From a virus: a stretch of DNA of 59,370 bases. The notes under the pieces are model-generated. The model was not told where the DNA came from. It searched no databases and worked only from the letters and a program-made list of their open reading frames with translations. The position numbers and the translations under genes were made by a program. The stretch is taken from IMG/VR virus record IMGVR_UViG_3300045474_000007, positions 1-59,370 of that record; one strand, given 5' to 3'. Shown here piece by piece: positions 175-10,209 of this stretch. Numbering within the stretch: position 1 is the stretch's first letter; each line of letters starts with the position of its first letter.

Positions 175-375
175 TCAACCCCTCTTGTTCAAGTCACGCC
201 GAACTTCCATCTGAAACACCGTGGAAATAGGGGAGCCGTTATCCCGGTGAAAGAATACCCGTAGACTGATCCAGTTCATGTTGTCCTCGCTGGCGTGCTC
301 TATCTCTAATTTCCTATGGGCCAATTCGTCGCAAAGCGCAAGACGGATGCGTTCTATGATGGTTAGTTCTGGCAT
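175..375 (-). CDS. Hypothetical protein, 66 aa
   Basis: Unrecognised small protein beginning MPELTIIERIRLALCDELAH. Its ATG overlaps the TAA stop of the head morphogenesis gene (TAATG), and an AAGGAAGGGA SD lies upstream within that gene's end, so it is probably translated by coupling. No signal peptide or membrane segment is seen. A heptad-like N-terminus and a beta-rich middle are the only visible traits. It is the last gene before the terminator-like leader. Confidence 0.6.
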   Translation of the reverse strand: MPELTIIERIRLALCDELAHRKLEIEHASEDNMNWISLRVFFHRDNGSPISTVFQMEVRRDLNKRG

Positions 376-1895
376 TAGTTAGTCCCTTCCTTAATTCCCA
401 CGCTGCAACGACAGTTGCTTGCAACTATACCATTCGCGATATAAATTGACCCTAAAGCTTGGAGGTCGAAGATATGTCCCGAATACCAGATCCGTCGAAC
501 CTTACCGATCTGCTTAGGCGCTACATCGAAGGCGAAAGCGAGAAGAAACTGGCGCAAGAGTGTCACATAAGTAGACCTGCCTTTAGAAAACGGCTGCTTC
601 GTAACGGCATTCAACCACGCTCGCAATCTGAAGCCGAAACTATTCGATGGTCTCGGATGTCTAAGGAGCAACGAATCCAACAAGTAGCGCAAGCTCATAT
701 AGCAGCTCGCGGATCTAAGCGATCTATGCAGCAGAAGATCGCCCATGCCAAATCCATTGAAACGCATGCTCATCTCTCTAGCCACGAAAAGATTATGATT
801 AGCATGCTCTCCAACTCGATCACGCCACAAAAGGCTGTCGGCGCATACAACCTCGATATCGCTTTTGACTCCTACCCCGTCGCCGTGGAGATATTCGGAG
901 GAGGATGGCACGCTTACGGAACTCACAGGAAGCGACATTCTGAGCGATTGGAATATATTCTCAATGCAGGATGGAATGTCATTTTCGTTTGGGCCGACCG
1001 TGTCCACTATCCCATTACGGATGCCACCGCAAAGCACGTAATCTCCCTCGTTAAGGAACTGCGCAGGTATAAATCCCCGTTGTGTCAATATCGGATGATT
1101 AGGGCCGACGGTAAGCCGCTTCCCCCATGCATGAATTTCGATTAACTCGCCGCGATACTGCGCTTTAATACCGACTTCCCTAGTTACGCTTTCAACTACA
1201 ACATCAGGGACTAAACAATGGGGATGTAGCGTCGGTCCGCTAATCCTGCGGCCGTCTGGAGATGTAAATAGCCCACCGACCTTTACGTGCTGGTTCTCCG
1301 GCATAGTGGGCAACTCCTCGCACAGATCGCACAACCCCGCGATTCGGGATGGCAACCATACCTGCTCGACTTGAGGAGATAACTCGTTCATCGCTTGAGC
1401 CGTTTTCCATCCAGCCTGCACGCCTGCCGTCCCAGCGTTGATAGACTCTGTACGGCCTATCATCATCGCTCTATCTCTCAGCAGTTTTTCCCCGTAGCGA
1501 AGAACTTTGCCCTCGACATTGCTTGCCCCTTCGTCCAATAGCCGCAGCTCGTAGTTATTAAGAGCCGTCACACGCCGGGGATCCAATCCGATGATGCCTT
1601 TAATCTTGCGAGCCGTGTCCTGCACCGTTACCTGATCGTTCCATGACGCCTCCAGCATCGTTCTAATCCCCGCCTTAACGCTATTGTCGATGCCGACGAT
1701 TAGGTTAGCCGATTCATTTCTCATGTAGTCGATGGCAAACGGGTTATTCATTGTGAAGCTACCGCTTAACCCAAGCTGAACGATGGCAATATTGCCCCCG
1801 GCTTCCACTATCTGAGCCAACGTTTCCCGCATAGCCGAAAACTCCAACCCCGCAGAAGCGTTGCGCAACGCGGAGGCTGGGTCGTGAGCCGTCAA
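375..1895 (-). CDS. Phage head morphogenesis protein (SPP1 gp7 / Mu gpF-like) containing an intein
   Basis: Family members sit beside the portal and help assemble the prohead or eject DNA. Residues 1-226 and 495-506 are the extein: a helical N-terminal region, the RTESINAGTAG stretch typical of the family (about 148-158), a CDLC pair, and the C-terminal HPHCRC motif. An intein (residues 227-494) interrupts HPH|CRC; precise splicing would restore the motif. The numbering uses the TTG at 1895. The frame is open for 40 more codons to position 2015, and that upstream stretch reads like a genuine family N-terminus (MALTAIDRAARAFEPALR). The only SD-matched start there would be an ACG at 2015-2013, so the true start is uncertain. 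Confidence 0.85.
   Translation of the reverse strand: MTAHDPASALRNASAGLEFSAMRETLAQIVEAGGNIAIVQLGLSGSFTMNNPFAIDYMRNESANLIVGIDNSVKAGIRTMLEASWNDQVTVQDTARKIKGIIGLDPRRVTALNNYELRLLDEGASNVEGKVLRYGEKLLRDRAMMIGRTESINAGTAGVQAGWKTAQAMNELSPQVEQVWLPSRIAGLCDLCEELPTMPENQHVKVGGLFTSPDGRRISGPTLHPHCLVPDVVVESVTREVGIKAQYRGELIEIHAWGKRLTVGPNHPILTQRGFIPAQFLNEGDYVLCGGIRNGIVDTVGPNENDIPSCIENIFQSLRMSLPVSSVSVPSSSEYLHGDGVGVKSDIEVVCADSLLWRDRVGEHANHNLFVAREMSMRFNGFGMGDLLLHRSLRSASCYMSLRYLLDSLLLRHPRPSNSFGFRLRAWLNAVTKQPFSKGRSTYVTLLRQFLLAFAFDVAPKQIGKVRRIWYSGHIFDLQALGSIYIANGIVASNCRCSVGIKEGTN
414..1217 (-). other. Intein (HINT domain) within the head morphogenesis gene
   Basis: About 268 residues from Cys227 to Asn494. Block A begins CLVPDVVVESV, block B contains LTVGPNHPILTQRGF with the conserved His267, and blocks F/G read HIFDLQ and YIANGIVASN followed by the Cys+1 of the extein. 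These are hallmarks of a Cys1/Asn-terminal protein-splicing domain; the penultimate residue is Ser rather than the usual His. The middle (about 289-465) has no LAGLIDADG or HNH nuclease. That space is instead the antisense of the plus-strand endonuclease gene at 474-1145. The intein is expected to excise itself and join HPH to CRC. Confidence 0.88.
474..1145 (+). CDS. Vsr-like (EDxHD-type) homing endonuclease, antisense inside the intein
   Basis: 223 residues from an ATG preceded by GGAGGTCGAAGAT, a strong SD at proper spacing. Residues 1-60 form a helix-turn-helix-like DNA-binding region (KKLAQECHISRPAFRKRLL). Residues 100-180 match the Vsr/EDxHD nuclease fold: E105, LDIAF with D128, VAVEIFGGGWH with E139 and H146, H151/H155, then GWNVIFVW. 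Free-standing enzymes of this group cleave intron-less or intein-less alleles so that the element is copied in. The gene is wholly contained in the intein coding region on the opposite strand, and its SD is the complement of the codons for intein block F (IFDLQ). It is one of only two credible plus-strand genes in the window. Confidence 0.85.
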   Translation: MSRIPDPSNLTDLLRRYIEGESEKKLAQECHISRPAFRKRLLRNGIQPRSQSEAETIRWSRMSKEQRIQQVAQAHIAARGSKRSMQQKIAHAKSIETHAHLSSHEKIMISMLSNSITPQKAVGAYNLDIAFDSYPVAVEIFGGGWHAYGTHRKRHSERLEYILNAGWNVIFVWADRVHYPITDATAKHVISLVKELRRYKSPLCQYRMIRADGKPLPPCMNFD

Positions 1896-2005
1896 TGCCG
1901 CCTCGATAACGTCTAACGTGACTTGGCTCTTGGCACTGCCGACCGCTGCCAGAAACGCGCTCCGCAGGGCTGGTTCGAACGCTCTAGCCGCCCGATCTAT
2001 TGCGG

Positions 2006-3427
2006 TTAGCGCCGTGGAAACCTCGACTTATTGGCAGGCTTATTAGGGTTGACCTTTGGGGGGATGGCAGGATCGGGCGGCAAAGCTTCCGGACTCGGTT
2101 GCGGTAAATTGGCAATACGACGCAGTTGCAACTCCAACGCCTCATCCGGGAATAGAGAAGCCCCGGCCGCAGACAGCTTACTCAGGTAGTCTGCCATCTC
2201 GGTAATGTTCGGCGAGGTGATATCCCCATGAGCCATCTTAGGCGGACGGGTTACGTCCATCGCGTTTAGCTCAAGCAGCCGGGGTATCTCGTGGCGGTTA
2301 ATCGGCTCGGTGATCTTGGACAAGAATGAGCCTAAAGCCACAATGAACAACTGAGTTTTATCAGTGGACAACGCCCAACTGCCAGCCGCCCCTTGCCCCA
2401 AAAATATGAAGTCGGCCAATACCGTCATAGCCATGCGCGTTTCATAGCGCGTGATGGTAGCGTCTAGGTCGAATTGTCGGCGCGATCCGGAGGACAGTAA
2501 CGTTAAATTCCACTGGTTAAATTCGGTATTGGCTAGCGATGCGTCTGCCGCCCCCGGCAACAACACCCCTTCTTGCTGGCCCCGGCGGATTGACTTAACT
2601 AACGCTTCCGCTTTGTGGCGAAGCACCGTCATGTCGGGGTCCTTATCGTTGTATAGGTCCAGCCCCGCTGGCGCACGCAGGACGGGCAATCCAGCCAAGT
2701 CGCGCTCTATCCCGATAGCTTCTATCTCCTGGAATCGCTTGGTGTAGTACCACGGCCGGTAGGCGCGACGCAGCAGACTGGCCCCCTCTGGGTTATTCCG
2801 CTCGGTGCGGGTGCGAAATAAGATCGCCTTGTCTATCGGGATTAGAACCTCTTTGGAAATAGGAAAGTTGCTGGCTTGCCACATCCCCTGGATGCCGCCT
2901 GTATTATCAATCTCCCATCGGCGCAGGGTTTCTTGCCCTCGCAGCGCCCACTTGCGCCAACCGATCTTACGGTCATCGTATAGGCTTTTAGGCAGCGGCA
3001 TTCCTAGCTCATCCATTCCCGGGTCCATGCCATTACGCATCTTGTAACATATCTCTGAATACGCCCAACCGAAGGTAAACATGGTAACGATCTCTGACAG
3101 CGTATCGCTCCAACTGGAGGACATATCCTGCCAGCACTGCTCGATGAACTCCTTGGAAACCTCGTCCTCCGGTAATGAGTCCCCGGCTGAATCCTTGAAC
3201 GGCTCAATGCGCCACTCTACCTGCGTTATCATCTGCTCTATGACGAAAAGAATTGTGGCAATGATCGGATCGTTAGCGGCCATCTCCTTGTATTTTTGGA
3301 TGGCCTTGGTGCCCTGGAGATCAACAAGAAACTCCTCGGTTAGCAGTCCGGCGTATTGCTTTAAGCCGGAGGAGCCTATTTCTAGGAATATTTTCTTAGG
3401 GTCGGAAGTCGGAGTTGGTTCGGCCAT
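2006..3427 (-). CDS. Portal protein
   Basis: 473 residues. The early part (DPIIATILFVIEQMITQVEW) and the later segment RRAYRPWYYTKRFQEIEAIGIERDLAGLP match the portal family found in many siphoviruses. The portal forms the dodecameric DNA channel at one capsid vertex and docks the terminase. The C-terminus is proline-rich (about 440-473). It lies between the terminase large subunit and the head morphogenesis gene, the canonical order. An SD-like GGGGGG run precedes the ATG, and the start overlaps the end of the preceding gene by 32 bases. Confidence 0.9.
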   Translation of the reverse strand: MAEPTPTSDPKKIFLEIGSSGLKQYAGLLTEEFLVDLQGTKAIQKYKEMAANDPIIATILFVIEQMITQVEWRIEPFKDSAGDSLPEDEVSKEFIEQCWQDMSSSWSDTLSEIVTMFTFGWAYSEICYKMRNGMDPGMDELGMPLPKSLYDDRKIGWRKWALRGQETLRRWEIDNTGGIQGMWQASNFPISKEVLIPIDKAILFRTRTERNNPEGASLLRRAYRPWYYTKRFQEIEAIGIERDLAGLPVLRAPAGLDLYNDKDPDMTVLRHKAEALVKSIRRGQQEGVLLPGAADASLANTEFNQWNLTLLSSGSRRQFDLDATITRYETRMAMTVLADFIFLGQGAAGSWALSTDKTQLFIVALGSFLSKITEPINRHEIPRLLELNAMDVTRPPKMAHGDITSPNITEMADYLSKLSAAGASLFPDEALELQLRRIANLPQPSPEALPPDPAIPPKVNPNKPANKSRFPRR

Positions 3428-3917
3428 TTAGAGAGCCCCCCTCTGCCTCACTTCTACACGGGGTTAGCCGTTTGCGCAATTCTATTACTTTCCCGATATT
3501 CCAAATACATCCACTTGAACAATCCCAAGCACTGTACCATAGCAAGTCTGGTTCGTATCGAAGAGCTCGATAATATTCAGGCAACTCAATGCCATCATAG
3601 CCAATTTTTGAGAGTCGGGCCCAGTCTAACGACACAGTGAAATGACTACCCCTATCTTTGATACCGTACTCATTTGTAAACTCGATCAGACTACGACCAT
3701 CTTCTAAGATTAGAAGCTTGCACTGACTATCCAAAACCACTTCGTAGTTAAACTCGCCAATCCAATGCGGCACTTCACTTTTGCACCACTGTAACCACGC
3801 ATTGCCCAAGGCATACCATAATCCAGATGGCTTGGAACCGATCTTGAGGTTATAGACTTGCGCTCGATTAAGAGTAATCGCACTCTTGGAATTTATTGTT
3901 CTTGTTTTCAAATCCAT
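3396..3917 (-). CDS. Conserved hypothetical phage protein, 173 aa
   Basis: Contains the pattern WARLSKIGYDGIELPEYY near residues 100-117 and WYSAWDCSSGCIWN near 127-140, a signature I have seen in uncharacterised phage and bacterial proteins; no function is known to me. The ATG overlaps the TGA of the terminase large subunit out of frame, so translation is probably coupled. Its 3' end overlaps the portal start by 32 bases. Insertion of an accessory gene between terminase and portal suggests a moron. Confidence 0.75.
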   Translation of the reverse strand: MDLKTRTINSKSAITLNRAQVYNLKIGSKPSGLWYALGNAWLQWCKSEVPHWIGEFNYEVVLDSQCKLLILEDGRSLIEFTNEYGIKDRGSHFTVSLDWARLSKIGYDGIELPEYYRALRYEPDLLWYSAWDCSSGCIWNIGKVIELRKRLTPCRSEAEGGSLNGRTNSDFRP

Positions 3918-5386
3918 GCTGCTACCTGCCCGATTCCCATCGGTGCGCCCATCACCTTGGGCTCCGTCCTCTCGAACCGCTGCAAGGCCTGAACCATAGC
4001 GTCCACGTCATCATCGTAATCTCCTTCGGGAAACTCCACCATCAAATCCACTACCTCATTAACCCACGGAACCATAGCCGGGTTAGGCAGCCATAGATTG
4101 CCGGACTCGTGCTGCGGCTGTTGAGCTAGCGCCCTGCCTACCTTGCTGTCCATCTTCATGCCCGGCGGAGGCCAAGGGATAATCCCGGCAATGTGATCGC
4201 GCAATGAATTGATAATAGCTGGCCCGTTGGCCTTATCCTCTACGATCTTAGCCTTTGCCATTGGCCACGCTTGGCACATTAGAGCCAACGCCTTAACACT
4301 GGCGTTGAAGTCCAAGTGCTCGGTGCGCCGCTCTAGCAGATATTTGTTGGACCCCTTCTTTCCCCATACGTGCAGGGCCACCATAGAGCCAGTCTTGAAA
4401 TCCTTGAACGCTGCGTCCATCGAAATGATAACCGTGTCCATCATCGCTGCTGCTTGCTGAGGGGTTTCGGAGTAGTAGCGCCAAAATCCGCGCTTGAATA
4501 TCGCCCCTTCGTCATTGCTTGGGTTCTGCTGATGCTGGGCCTGAAAGATGCGCGGCTTAGTCTTTAGGGCATCGACCTCCACTTGATTGAAGCGTTGGGG
4601 GCATAACAACTCGCCGGGCTTCTTGCGTGGGTCTTTCCATCCGATAGAAGTCATCTTGGATCGGTTCGGCTCGTACTGAGTCGGCAGCATTAGGTATTCC
4701 CAGCCGCCCTCTTTTAGTATCTCCCCGGCAAGGTCCTGTGCGCTTATGCGCTGCATGATGATTAGCCGTCGAGCGTCATTTGGATCGTTGACACGGTTCC
4801 GAACGGCGGAGTTATAGGTGTTGATGGCTGTCTTTAGTTTGGCTTCGGATACCCAATCTTCGGTTGCGTTTGGATCGTCGCAAATAACTGCCTTAGCGCC
4901 CATTCCCGTAACACCGCCCATGCCAAACGCAGCGCGTGTCCCCATCTTATCGTTGGTGAACTTCATCTTCTCGTTCTGATCCGATGTTAGCCGGAACCTG
5001 TCGCTCCAGTTGCGCTGGTACCAATCGGACTCGATAACCCGGCGGCACTTAACCGAGTGATCGCTGGCTAGATGAGAAGCGAACGAAACAAACATGAACG
5101 TGAAGGACGGATCGTGAAGCCAAACCCAAGCAGGCCAGCAGATAGAGCTCACCACAGACTTGGTAGAACGAGGGGCAACGGTTATGAGCAGGTTCTTTAT
5201 CTGGCCGATAAAGAGCGCTTCTAGGTGTTCGCAGATGGCTTGAATATGAAACCCATCTACAAACTTCTCTGTCGGATGCAGGATGGGCCACGACACCCGG
5301 ACGAATTGGTGAAGGCTTTTCTCCGCCAGATACGCGTCGATCTCCTCCAGGGATGGCAACTTAGGCCGGGGTTCAGGCTTGCTCAC
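3908..5386 (-). CDS. terL: Terminase large subunit
   Basis: 492 residues, full length for the family. N-terminal ATPase: Walker A-like APRSTKS (71-77) and Walker B VICDDP (167-172). C-terminal RNase H-like nuclease: SMD at 322-324, VED at 382-384 and YDDDVDA at 457-463 supply the acidic triad. The enzyme cuts concatemers and pumps DNA through the portal. The Walker A lacks the usual Gly before Lys (STKS), a variant I recall from some terminases (T/S-x-KS). Start is GTG, overlapping the previous stop as GTGA, indicating coupled translation. Confidence 0.95.
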   Translation of the reverse strand: MSKPEPRPKLPSLEEIDAYLAEKSLHQFVRVSWPILHPTEKFVDGFHIQAICEHLEALFIGQIKNLLITVAPRSTKSVVSSICWPAWVWLHDPSFTFMFVSFASHLASDHSVKCRRVIESDWYQRNWSDRFRLTSDQNEKMKFTNDKMGTRAAFGMGGVTGMGAKAVICDDPNATEDWVSEAKLKTAINTYNSAVRNRVNDPNDARRLIIMQRISAQDLAGEILKEGGWEYLMLPTQYEPNRSKMTSIGWKDPRKKPGELLCPQRFNQVEVDALKTKPRIFQAQHQQNPSNDEGAIFKRGFWRYYSETPQQAAAMMDTVIISMDAAFKDFKTGSMVALHVWGKKGSNKYLLERRTEHLDFNASVKALALMCQAWPMAKAKIVEDKANGPAIINSLRDHIAGIIPWPPPGMKMDSKVGRALAQQPQHESGNLWLPNPAMVPWVNEVVDLMVEFPEGDYDDDVDAMVQALQRFERTEPKVMGAPMGIGQVAAWI

Positions 5387-8385: not shown

Positions 8386-8795
8386 TTCAAATCCTCCTTA
8401 GTGATTAAGACGCTATCACACACCCACTTCCCAAGTTTATTTTTCTTCCAGCCGTGAATCTGAATAGAATGGCCCCGGATGGACAACCACGCCCAAGCCG
8501 CCCGGACTCGCTTAGGGTCATCCTTTATTTTCTTGATACGTGCCGCCATGTTGGTTTTCGTTGTGGTTTGCACCAGGATAGCCTCAGGATCGACATGAAT
8601 GCTGTCGAGAGAATGAGACTCCATTATCGTGCGCATACCCGCGATAGCCAGCAAGTCACCGAAGCCGAATAAATCCTGACGAATCTTTGCCCACGGATTC
8701 CAGTGCTCAACGATTGCCACAATGAAGCCCTGTTTACGCAGCAGAGATAGGCTCCGCTGCGTGGGGGACGTGCTACTTTTTTTCTTTACGGGCAC
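8382..8795 (-). CDS. Putative PD-(D/E)XK-type nuclease
   Basis: 137 residues, GTG start with an AGGTGG SD, overlapping the ParB-like gene by 23 bases. The pattern SPTQRSLSLLRKQGFIVAIVEHWNPWAKIRQDLFGFGDLLAI followed by ILVQTTTKTNMAARIKKI matches a phage family with a restriction-endonuclease-like core. D in FGDLLAI and Q in VQTTT sit at catalytic-core positions; the family often has Q where classical enzymes have E. Likely acts in recombination or repair. Confidence 0.65.
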   Translation of the reverse strand: MPVKKKSSTSPTQRSLSLLRKQGFIVAIVEHWNPWAKIRQDLFGFGDLLAIAGMRTIMESHSLDSIHVDPEAILVQTTTKTNMAARIKKIKDDPKRVRAAWAWLSIRGHSIQIHGWKKNKLGKWVCDSVLITKEDLK

Positions 8796-10209
8796 GTTTC
8801 ACCACCTTTGTTTTGTCCCTCTTGGCCGGTACTGTAATGCGGTTCCGGATCACCTCCAGATTAACCACTCCAGGGTAGAGCCGCTCGACTTCTGCCGCAG
8901 CCCCTTTAGCCGTTCGCGGCAAGAGTAGGCCGGATAGCGCAAACCCGAAGATCAACTTTTGCAAGACTTTGACATCGTTGATTCGATCTATGTCCTCGGC
9001 CATATCGAAATTAGCCTTCAAGCCATAGTAGTCCAGGTGAACTTTCTTAAGATCGTTCCACATCCCATCCCACATAAAATTGGCGATAATGCGGTGCTCT
9101 ATCACACCGTCATGGTGAGAAACTTGGGTTAAGATATCGTTGTAAACTTCTTTAGCCACTTGCTTAGCCATCCGATCTTCGGCCAACTCTTTCTTGTGCT
9201 GTGGCGTGGCCTGAGCTCGTGCCGAATGAATCTTACACTTGGGGTCCGTGCATACGAGCGACTTCTTGTAGCCGCCGTCGATAATCAGCGCATGCATGGT
9301 GCTAGGGCACGTCAAGTCGGCCACCGTTATCGGCTTATACTTATCTGGCGCAATCTCGTCCATCCCATACGGGCGGGTGCCAGCGCGAATCAGAACCAGA
9401 TCGGGATTGTCTTTCTTTTTGCCATCGACAAACTTAGCCAACTTTTTCTTGAAACAAACCGGGTCCAGGCAAAGATTCTTTTCCTCCTTGCTCTCAAATA
9501 GCGCCGGTTGATTGTTGGACTGCTTAGGACACTCTACGCATGAGCCAACCCCTTGAATAAGATTGGCGTCCTTTAAGTCCCACGGTGCCTCTTTCAGGTT
9601 AGTAAACCGGCTGCGGCAGAACCAGTCCACGAGCGTTGCCGTAATGCCGCTGCGATTCTTCGCCTCCGCCAAACAAGCTTTCTGCGTTTCCGGCGTAGTT
9701 CGCGCCAGAGCAAAAGCCGTATCCAACCCTATCTTGTTCGCCTTAAACGATTCAGCGGCCGGAGCGATAAGGGAAACTAGTACTGCTCGCCGTTTGACAT
9801 AATTAACTTTCTTTCCGATTGCTAAACCTACAGCCTCGAACTCCCCGTTATGCTTCTCTAGGAGATCATTAATCAATACGGCTTCATCGTAGGGGTGAAG
9901 TTCCTCCCGCTGTAGAGCCGTAACCAATTGGGTTTGCTTGGCGTCCTCGTCCGTCATCTCCCGAACGATGCAAGGTACCACTGGCAGTTTCAGCTCCTCC
10001 GCTGCCGCTAGTCGGCGATGGCCGTTGACCATCTCGAAGCTAAACTTACTCCCGGCTTCTTGATTTATTGGACGGACAATTAGCGGCTCTATGATTCCGC
10101 CATTGGAAATGCTGTAGACCAGTTGCTCCATATTGGGCAAGGCCCGCCGTGGGTTAAACGGACTTGGCTCGATCTTGCTCGGCTCTATGTTTTCAATTTT
10201 CTCTGCCAT
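8773..10209 (-). CDS. ParB-like protein with cysteine-rich region
   Basis: 478 residues. Residues 1-110 are a ParB N-terminal domain: FNPRR (18-22), GIIEPLIVRP, NGHRRLAAAEE (62-72) and TALQREELHPYDEA. The middle carries HTH-like helices. The later part has Cys motifs (CVECPKQ, CLDPVCFKKK, CTDPKCKIH) typical of plasmid and phage ParB-like proteins. Partition ParB proteins spread on DNA using CTP; phage versions may act in replication, gene control or as nucleases. No parA is visible, so a partition role is not supported. The SD is GAGGGAGAAA. Confidence 0.85.
   Translation of the reverse strand: MAEKIENIEPSKIEPSPFNPRRALPNMEQLVYSISNGGIIEPLIVRPINQEAGSKFSFEMVNGHRRLAAAEELKLPVVPCIVREMTDEDAKQTQLVTALQREELHPYDEAVLINDLLEKHNGEFEAVGLAIGKKVNYVKRRAVLVSLIAPAAESFKANKIGLDTAFALARTTPETQKACLAEAKNRSGITATLVDWFCRSRFTNLKEAPWDLKDANLIQGVGSCVECPKQSNNQPALFESKEEKNLCLDPVCFKKKLAKFVDGKKKDNPDLVLIRAGTRPYGMDEIAPDKYKPITVADLTCPSTMHALIIDGGYKKSLVCTDPKCKIHSARAQATPQHKKELAEDRMAKQVAKEVYNDILTQVSHHDGVIEHRIIANFMWDGMWNDLKKVHLDYYGLKANFDMAEDIDRINDVKVLQKLIFGFALSGLLLPRTAKGAAAEVERLYPGVVNLEVIRNRITVPAKRDKTKVVKRARKEKK

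Follow-up and report, generated by a model that had tools for sequence, protein, structure and literature searches.

A probable mobile intein in phage head genes with a homing endonuclease gene on its opposite strand

Can a phage gene carry, in one and the same insertion, a self-splicing element on one strand and the enzyme that would mobilize it on the other? The question is raised by IMG/VR virus record IMGVR_UViG_3300045474_000007, whose positions 1 to 59,370 (the window) we analyzed and in which a head gene on the minus strand and a nuclease-like ORF on the plus strand occupy the same DNA. We consider it very probable that this locus is a mobile intein and that its homing endonuclease (HEN) is read from the other strand, in register with the intein at every codon. 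The closest relative of the window HEN in the collections searched is only 46% identical; for this reason selection was measured on relatives, and what is said below about the activity of the window HEN likewise rests on relatives.

The head gene is the more easily recognized of the two. A single ORF (375-2024, minus strand) encodes the intein-containing precursor of a MuF-like head morphogenesis (minor head) protein, identified by its match to PHROG 3517 head morphogenesis (E=6e-27) and by gene order; its start codon is uncertain, the frame being open from 2024 and overlapping the portal stop. The neighboring portal (2006-3427) and terminase (3908-5386) genes are also on the minus strand and give the order terL-portal-MuF. 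The N-extein (1218-2024, minus strand) has HPH at its C-terminal end. A Pfam scan of this extein gave no match of its own; in relatives the same site lies in Phage_Mu_F or Phage_min_cap2 proteins, and among the N-exteins of ten loci scanned seven matched Phage_Mu_F (one below the cut-off) and two Phage_min_cap2. On reading the ORF, the C-extein is CRCSVGIKEGTN followed by a stop codon (375-413, minus strand), its +1 residue being Cys (codon 411-413).

Between the exteins lies an intein of 268 amino acids (414-1217, minus strand) that runs in a single continuous frame from Cys1 (codon 1215-1217) to Asn268 (414-416). Its Intein_splicing match is below the cut-off (E=1.4e-4) and its intein_Cterm match is at the cut-off, and AlphaFold2 predicts a Hint fold with pLDDT >90 at both ends, for which the top Foldseek matches are inteins (best E 7e-4). 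A search of the window's own record with PF14890 returned nothing above threshold, as expected because the intein is divergent. A Pfam scan for an in-frame nuclease in the intein gives Intein_splicing only, and its middle is predicted to be disordered. The head ORF is unbroken from 375 to 2024, and hence this is no fractured gene or split intein. From these features of its sequence, 414-1217 can be assigned to the class-1-type inteins, inserted here in a MuF-like head protein and predicted to splice.

The splicing blocks were located by alignment. Block B (GPNHPILT, residues 38-45, 1083-1106, minus strand; A4 alignment) lies within the DNA that encodes the C-terminal tail of HEN, block F is GHIFDLQ (459-479, minus strand), and block G is GIVASN (414-431, minus strand). 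An additional conserved motif, (E)DFHGDG in relatives and YLHGDG in the window (876-893, minus strand), lies opposite the catalytic PVAVEI of HEN. Cys1 is invariant in 35 aligned inteins. In the TxxH of block B the window intein keeps the His and has Gly for Thr (GPNH; most relatives have TPNH), and at block G it keeps Asn268 and Cys+1 and has Ser for the penultimate His (SN; most relatives have HN before the Cys). Because the block B Thr and the penultimate His are absent, splicing of the window intein itself could be slow or lost.

The plus-strand HEN gene (474-1145; ATG 474-476, stop 1143-1145) encodes 223 amino acids and has exactly the limits originally predicted for it. Each of its codons is the exact complement of an intein codon, the first lying opposite the block F His codon, and the gene ends 39 bases past block B, opposite intein residue 25. 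The Shine-Dalgarno sequence, GGAGGT (461-466, plus strand), is complementary to the codons for Asp-Leu-Gln in block F, so that, as had been proposed, both it and the ATG fall within the HIFDLQ codons. The protein consists of an N-terminal HTH and helical linker followed by a C-terminal Vsr/EDxHD-like nuclease. The HTH-like DNA-binding region (492-602, plus strand; helices 7-18, 23-29, and 34-43) is modeled with a pLDDT of about 97 and has weak HTH/sigma70_r4 Pfam matches. The catalytic core (846-947, plus strand) contains YNxD (Y125, N126, D128), VEIFGGGWH (E139-H146), and R158, all invariant or nearly so; the invariant residues are Y125, N126, D128, E139, F141-H146 (including W145 and H146), and R158, which are candidates for the residues of the EDxHD motif.

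A PDB search with the single HEN sequence gave no match, whereas the family profile matched I-Bth0305I (3r3p, E=0.002), a DUF559-type nuclease (3hrl, E=0.004), and, weakly, Vsr (1cw0, E=0.45); the TIGR00632 vsr model scored HEN far below its cut-off. The AlphaFold2 model of HEN (63 sequences in the alignment) has a mean pLDDT of 91.4, whereas in the other reading of the same DNA intein residues 128-214 fall below 50. The top three Foldseek matches to the HEN model are Vsr (1vsr, 1cw0) and I-Bth0305I (3r3p), with prob 0.99-1.0 and E 0.002-0.01. HEN as modeled thus has a Vsr-like fold, and cleavage activity is predicted. The original observation of a complete Vsr/EDxHD-like nuclease with its own Shine-Dalgarno sequence and an N-terminal DNA-binding region, opposite a head-protein intein that includes blocks B and F, is confirmed.

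Could the plus-strand ORF nevertheless be a chance shadow of the intein and no gene at all? Among ordinary long ORFs in these loci, 41 of 202 (20%) are antisense-open in register over 210 codons, so one such ORF of this length is unremarkable alone, and it is conservation over relatives that decides, from their sequences, that HEN is a gene. TTA, CTA, and TCA, which would be stops in the head frame, do not occur in the 19,000 codons of 90 non-redundant intein-embedded HENs, where 374 are expected from the codon usage of neighboring genes; all 90 keep the head frame open, an outcome in favor of the original proposal. Among the IMG/VR loci recovered with HEN only L076 has a head-frame stop inside HEN; it and L117 are free-standing relatives, with three and two such codons, respectively. 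A further test was whether homologs found through the intein also carry the antisense nuclease. In a search of the intein frame with splice-block patterns 79 of the best 80 loci have a full-length open antisense HEN; the 80th is a partial match, and HEN scores strongly there in that same frame. Plus-strand frames broken by stops are rare: in L072 (at 884) and L073 (at 3358) one TGA interrupts the HEN frame and the intein frame is open, while their sister L068 is intact. Such rarity of interrupted HEN frames is what a homing cycle would predict.

The overlap with block F gives direct evidence, at the level of codon usage, that intein codon choice serves the antisense gene. In 136 non-redundant block F sites the opposite strand at the His position reads ATG in 91 and GTG in 23, and an SD-like tetramer is present at 110 of the 136. 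The HEN Shine-Dalgarno sequence complements the block F Asp/Asn-Leu-Gln/Glu codons, and the Leu codon is CTC, the one that makes its GAGG, in 93 of 119 cases, where 31.4 are expected from the same proteins (z 13). A scan for antisense promoters was uninformative, finding two promoter-like sites against 1.1 expected, none of them upstream of HEN.

Which strand is under selection changes along the element. In five Jerseyvirus-type head genes aligned without gaps, differences in the exteins fall on head codon position 3, and those in the HEN-overlapped middle fall mainly on head position 1, which is HEN position 3. Thus BPS11Q3 and LP31 differ in the overlapped middle by 21, 2, and 8 changes at head positions 1, 2, and 3, and among their single-change codons 21 are silent only in HEN and 5 only in the head frame. 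The excess at head position 1 is wide in most Jerseyvirus pairs and weaker in comparisons with the distant STP-1. The few changes near block B are either balanced or more frequent at head position 3, the position to which differences return in blocks F-G. Across 13 disjoint pairs from IMG/VR and annotated phages, 514 single changes are HEN-silent and 174 head-silent, a count made on HEN-based alignments and hence biased towards HEN, a bias that the ungapped Jerseyvirus test does not have.

A per-codon test on 62 HENs found extra constraint on HEN-synonymous choice mainly in three regions: the HEN start, which overlaps block F; the catalytic PVAVEI codons that face DFHGDG (z 3 to 12); and the final 25 to 30 HEN codons, which overlap block B (z up to 11). 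Smaller patches lie near HEN residues 154-164, and the N-terminal half shows little. By this pattern the two proteins are entangled at three main places, namely block F, the DFHGDG/catalytic motif, and block B, where both frames are constrained, and the remaining intein middle is mostly a shadow of HEN. The clearest such stretch is the predicted disordered linker of intein residues 128-214 (576-836, minus strand), antisense to HEN residues 35-121, with pLDDT <50 and little HEN-synonymous constraint. DFHGDG looks like a real intein element, conserved beyond the needs of the nuclease. The original claim that both frames are under constraint therefore stands for these three places and fails for most of the N-terminal half of HEN, where only the HEN frame is constrained.

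The HMM, AlphaFold/Foldseek, codon-position, codon-avoidance, and SD-codon tests agree that the antisense frame is more than chance. The frequency of in-register antisense ORFs in ordinary genes speaks for a chance shadow, but the reversed codon-position signature, the excess of HEN-silent changes, the gap in predicted confidence between the two readings, the similarity to Vsr/EDxHD proteins, the free-standing HEN relatives, and the codon skew at the Shine-Dalgarno sequence leave it almost no probability. The codon-position test, the HEN-silent changes, and the avoidance of head-frame stops rule it out.

Evidence for mobility comes from Jerseyvirus; the window's own phage contributes none. The intein-less head alleles of PBSE191, wksl3, and Jersey join exactly at HPN^CRS, and BPS11Q3 and LSPA1 differ at 32% of bases in the N-extein, 5% in the HEN-overlapped intein, and 10% in the C-extein, a pattern as expected for recent transfer of the element with some co-conversion of flanking DNA. 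Clean intein-less alleles together with an intein far less diverged than the N-extein are our grounds for calling the element mobile. The earlier proposal of one compact element, with splicing putatively on the sense strand and mobility on the antisense strand, is supported by the relatives. Escherichia phage fEg-Eco06 and a Chloroflexi contig have a related intein and HEN at a second site of this head protein, about 20 residues farther upstream. Loci with such a pair at the second site include L106 (fEg-Eco06, 1369-3306) and L126; in the fEg-Eco06 HEN the GGGWH motif is no longer present (EICCRGT).

Two other readings accept HEN as a gene and deny part of the proposed cycle. In one of them the nuclease alone matters and the intein is a decayed, non-splicing relic whose frame is kept open for read-through of the head protein, much as in the ShiLan insertion discussed below. 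The unconstrained, predicted disordered middle and the two atypical splice residues in the window fit this, but the 35 aligned inteins retain blocks A, B, F, and G in the head frame, blocks B and F-G show head-frame selection, the predicted Hint fold has pLDDT >90, and the insertion interrupts a virion protein within its conserved HPxC motif, and we regard such decay as improbable. It is quite improbable, too, that HEN is a Vsr-like protein of repair or regulation that happens to be lodged in an intein, for although Vsr is its best structural match, the element is present or absent at one site, the intein is much less diverged than the N-extein, and the gene lies inside an intein; moreover, an N-terminal HTH with an EDxHD-like core is found in phage homing endonucleases (PMC3943268).

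Two routes may have led to this arrangement. The intein may have been invaded in antisense by a homing endonuclease gene that stood free next to the head gene (collaborative homing), or the gene may have evolved on the antisense strand of the intein. Invasion is a serious possibility that falls somewhat short of an even chance. In its favor, the free-standing HEN relatives (L076, 2480-3124; L117, 3001-3597) are antisense genes situated directly after MuF-like head genes that lack an intein and have intact HSLCRC and HPQCRC motifs, and these natural controls are possible HEN ancestors; there are, however, only two cases, and both could equally be escapees from an intein.

The cycle that we infer for the mobile intein with its antisense nuclease comprises splicing, plus-strand transcription, cleavage of empty sites, and homing. 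The head-protein precursor would be a minus-strand product from which the intein excises itself, and HEN would be translated from a plus-strand transcript, starting at the ATG or GTG that complements the block F His codon. The presumed target of HEN would be the conserved HPx^C codons of head genes that lack the intein, and repair of the cut would copy the whole element into the gene. The Hint splicing ends and the DFHGDG segment are constrained in the intein frame, and most of the intein middle is a tolerated antisense shadow of the nuclease, kept free of stop codons.

Canonical inteins carry an in-frame LAGLIDADG or HNH endonuclease domain. The present element shares with them a Hint splicing domain, insertion in a conserved motif, and a probable nuclease-driven homing, but its nuclease is a separate protein on the opposite strand with its own start and Shine-Dalgarno sequence and a Vsr/EDxHD fold. 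Its catalytic-domain profile and fold, and its combination of a DNA-binding region with a nuclease, resemble I-Bth0305I and other EDxHD homing endonucleases (3r3p). As far as is known, these are intron-encoded, free-standing, or located in fractured-gene gaps and not antisense within a continuous intein, which is where HEN lies, with its N-terminal HTH. Fractured genes, which Dassa et al. in 2009 reportedly described with split inteins and an EDxHD-type nuclease gene, likewise combine an intein with a separate nuclease gene, but here a single continuous ORF holds both intein and host gene, with no split in either. Some nuclear rDNA group I introns have antisense homing endonuclease genes and so resemble our element in having an antisense nuclease gene within a self-splicing element; in those introns, by contrast, it is RNA that splices, and so no protein-coding frame has to be kept open on the sense strand.

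Among published elements the closest analogue is the ShiLan insertion in a methylase, which carries an HNH nuclease out of frame on the same strand and lacks a splicing domain (PMC11855218). Here too a nuclease is hidden in another frame and the host frame is kept open; the ShiLan nuclease differs in its strand and HNH type and in the lack of a splicing domain and of a detectable RBS, and the window element, with its opposite-strand gene and Hint domain, falls outside the ShiLan-type definition (PMC11855218). The Jerseyvirus intein itself has already been noticed (PMC8425127), as has that of Kagunavirus. We found no description of an antisense or opposite-strand endonuclease inside an intein in the literature searched, which excluded bioRxiv. 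A 2025 preprint on non-canonical actinobacteriophage inteins (cited in PMC11855218) may overlap with our findings, since Gordonia phages carry this element. Because of that preprint and the published same-strand analogue ShiLan, the status of the element as an undescribed class is uncertain.

The element was found across IMG/VR, bacterial contigs, and 116 phage records, and by its sequence the antisense HEN within an intein is a widespread class in many unrelated phages. In the annotated records that we opened HEN is unannotated, save for a hypothetical fragment in vB_StyS-sam, and at the other matches the listed features are proteins named as head, structural, capsid, or hypothetical. The head proteins of phrog_15127 and of records KX405002, AJ560763, and NC_055775 include the intein, and the nuclease gene is missing from the annotation of these records. 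Annotation can be corrected accordingly: PHROG 15127 and, in the rows inspected, Jerseyvirus, Gordonia, and Pseudomonas phage head proteins contain an intein, and their annotation omits the nuclease.

On balance we lean towards a distinct mobile-element architecture, widespread in phage head genes and largely unannotated, in which a splicing element and a homing endonuclease are sense and antisense of the same codons, with essential motifs entangled (block F overlapping the start and Shine-Dalgarno sequence, DFHGDG the nuclease motif, and block B the nuclease C-terminus), so that neither part would be easily lost without touching the other. Inteins are thought to decay, their endonuclease being selected only while homing. 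With codons shared on two strands, it becomes testable whether a selfish gene gains protection from loss through genetic entanglement. The element is also a natural, many-times-diverged case of fully nested sense-antisense protein coding in which the selected strand switches measurably along the gene.

The HENs of L005, L009, L041, and L127 have extra N-terminal residues (about 60 to over 100) that resemble repeated HTH units, and in these loci the intein shadow is longer because of them. Elsewhere in the window, 8773-10209 (minus strand) encodes a ParB-like/methyltransferase-like phage protein.
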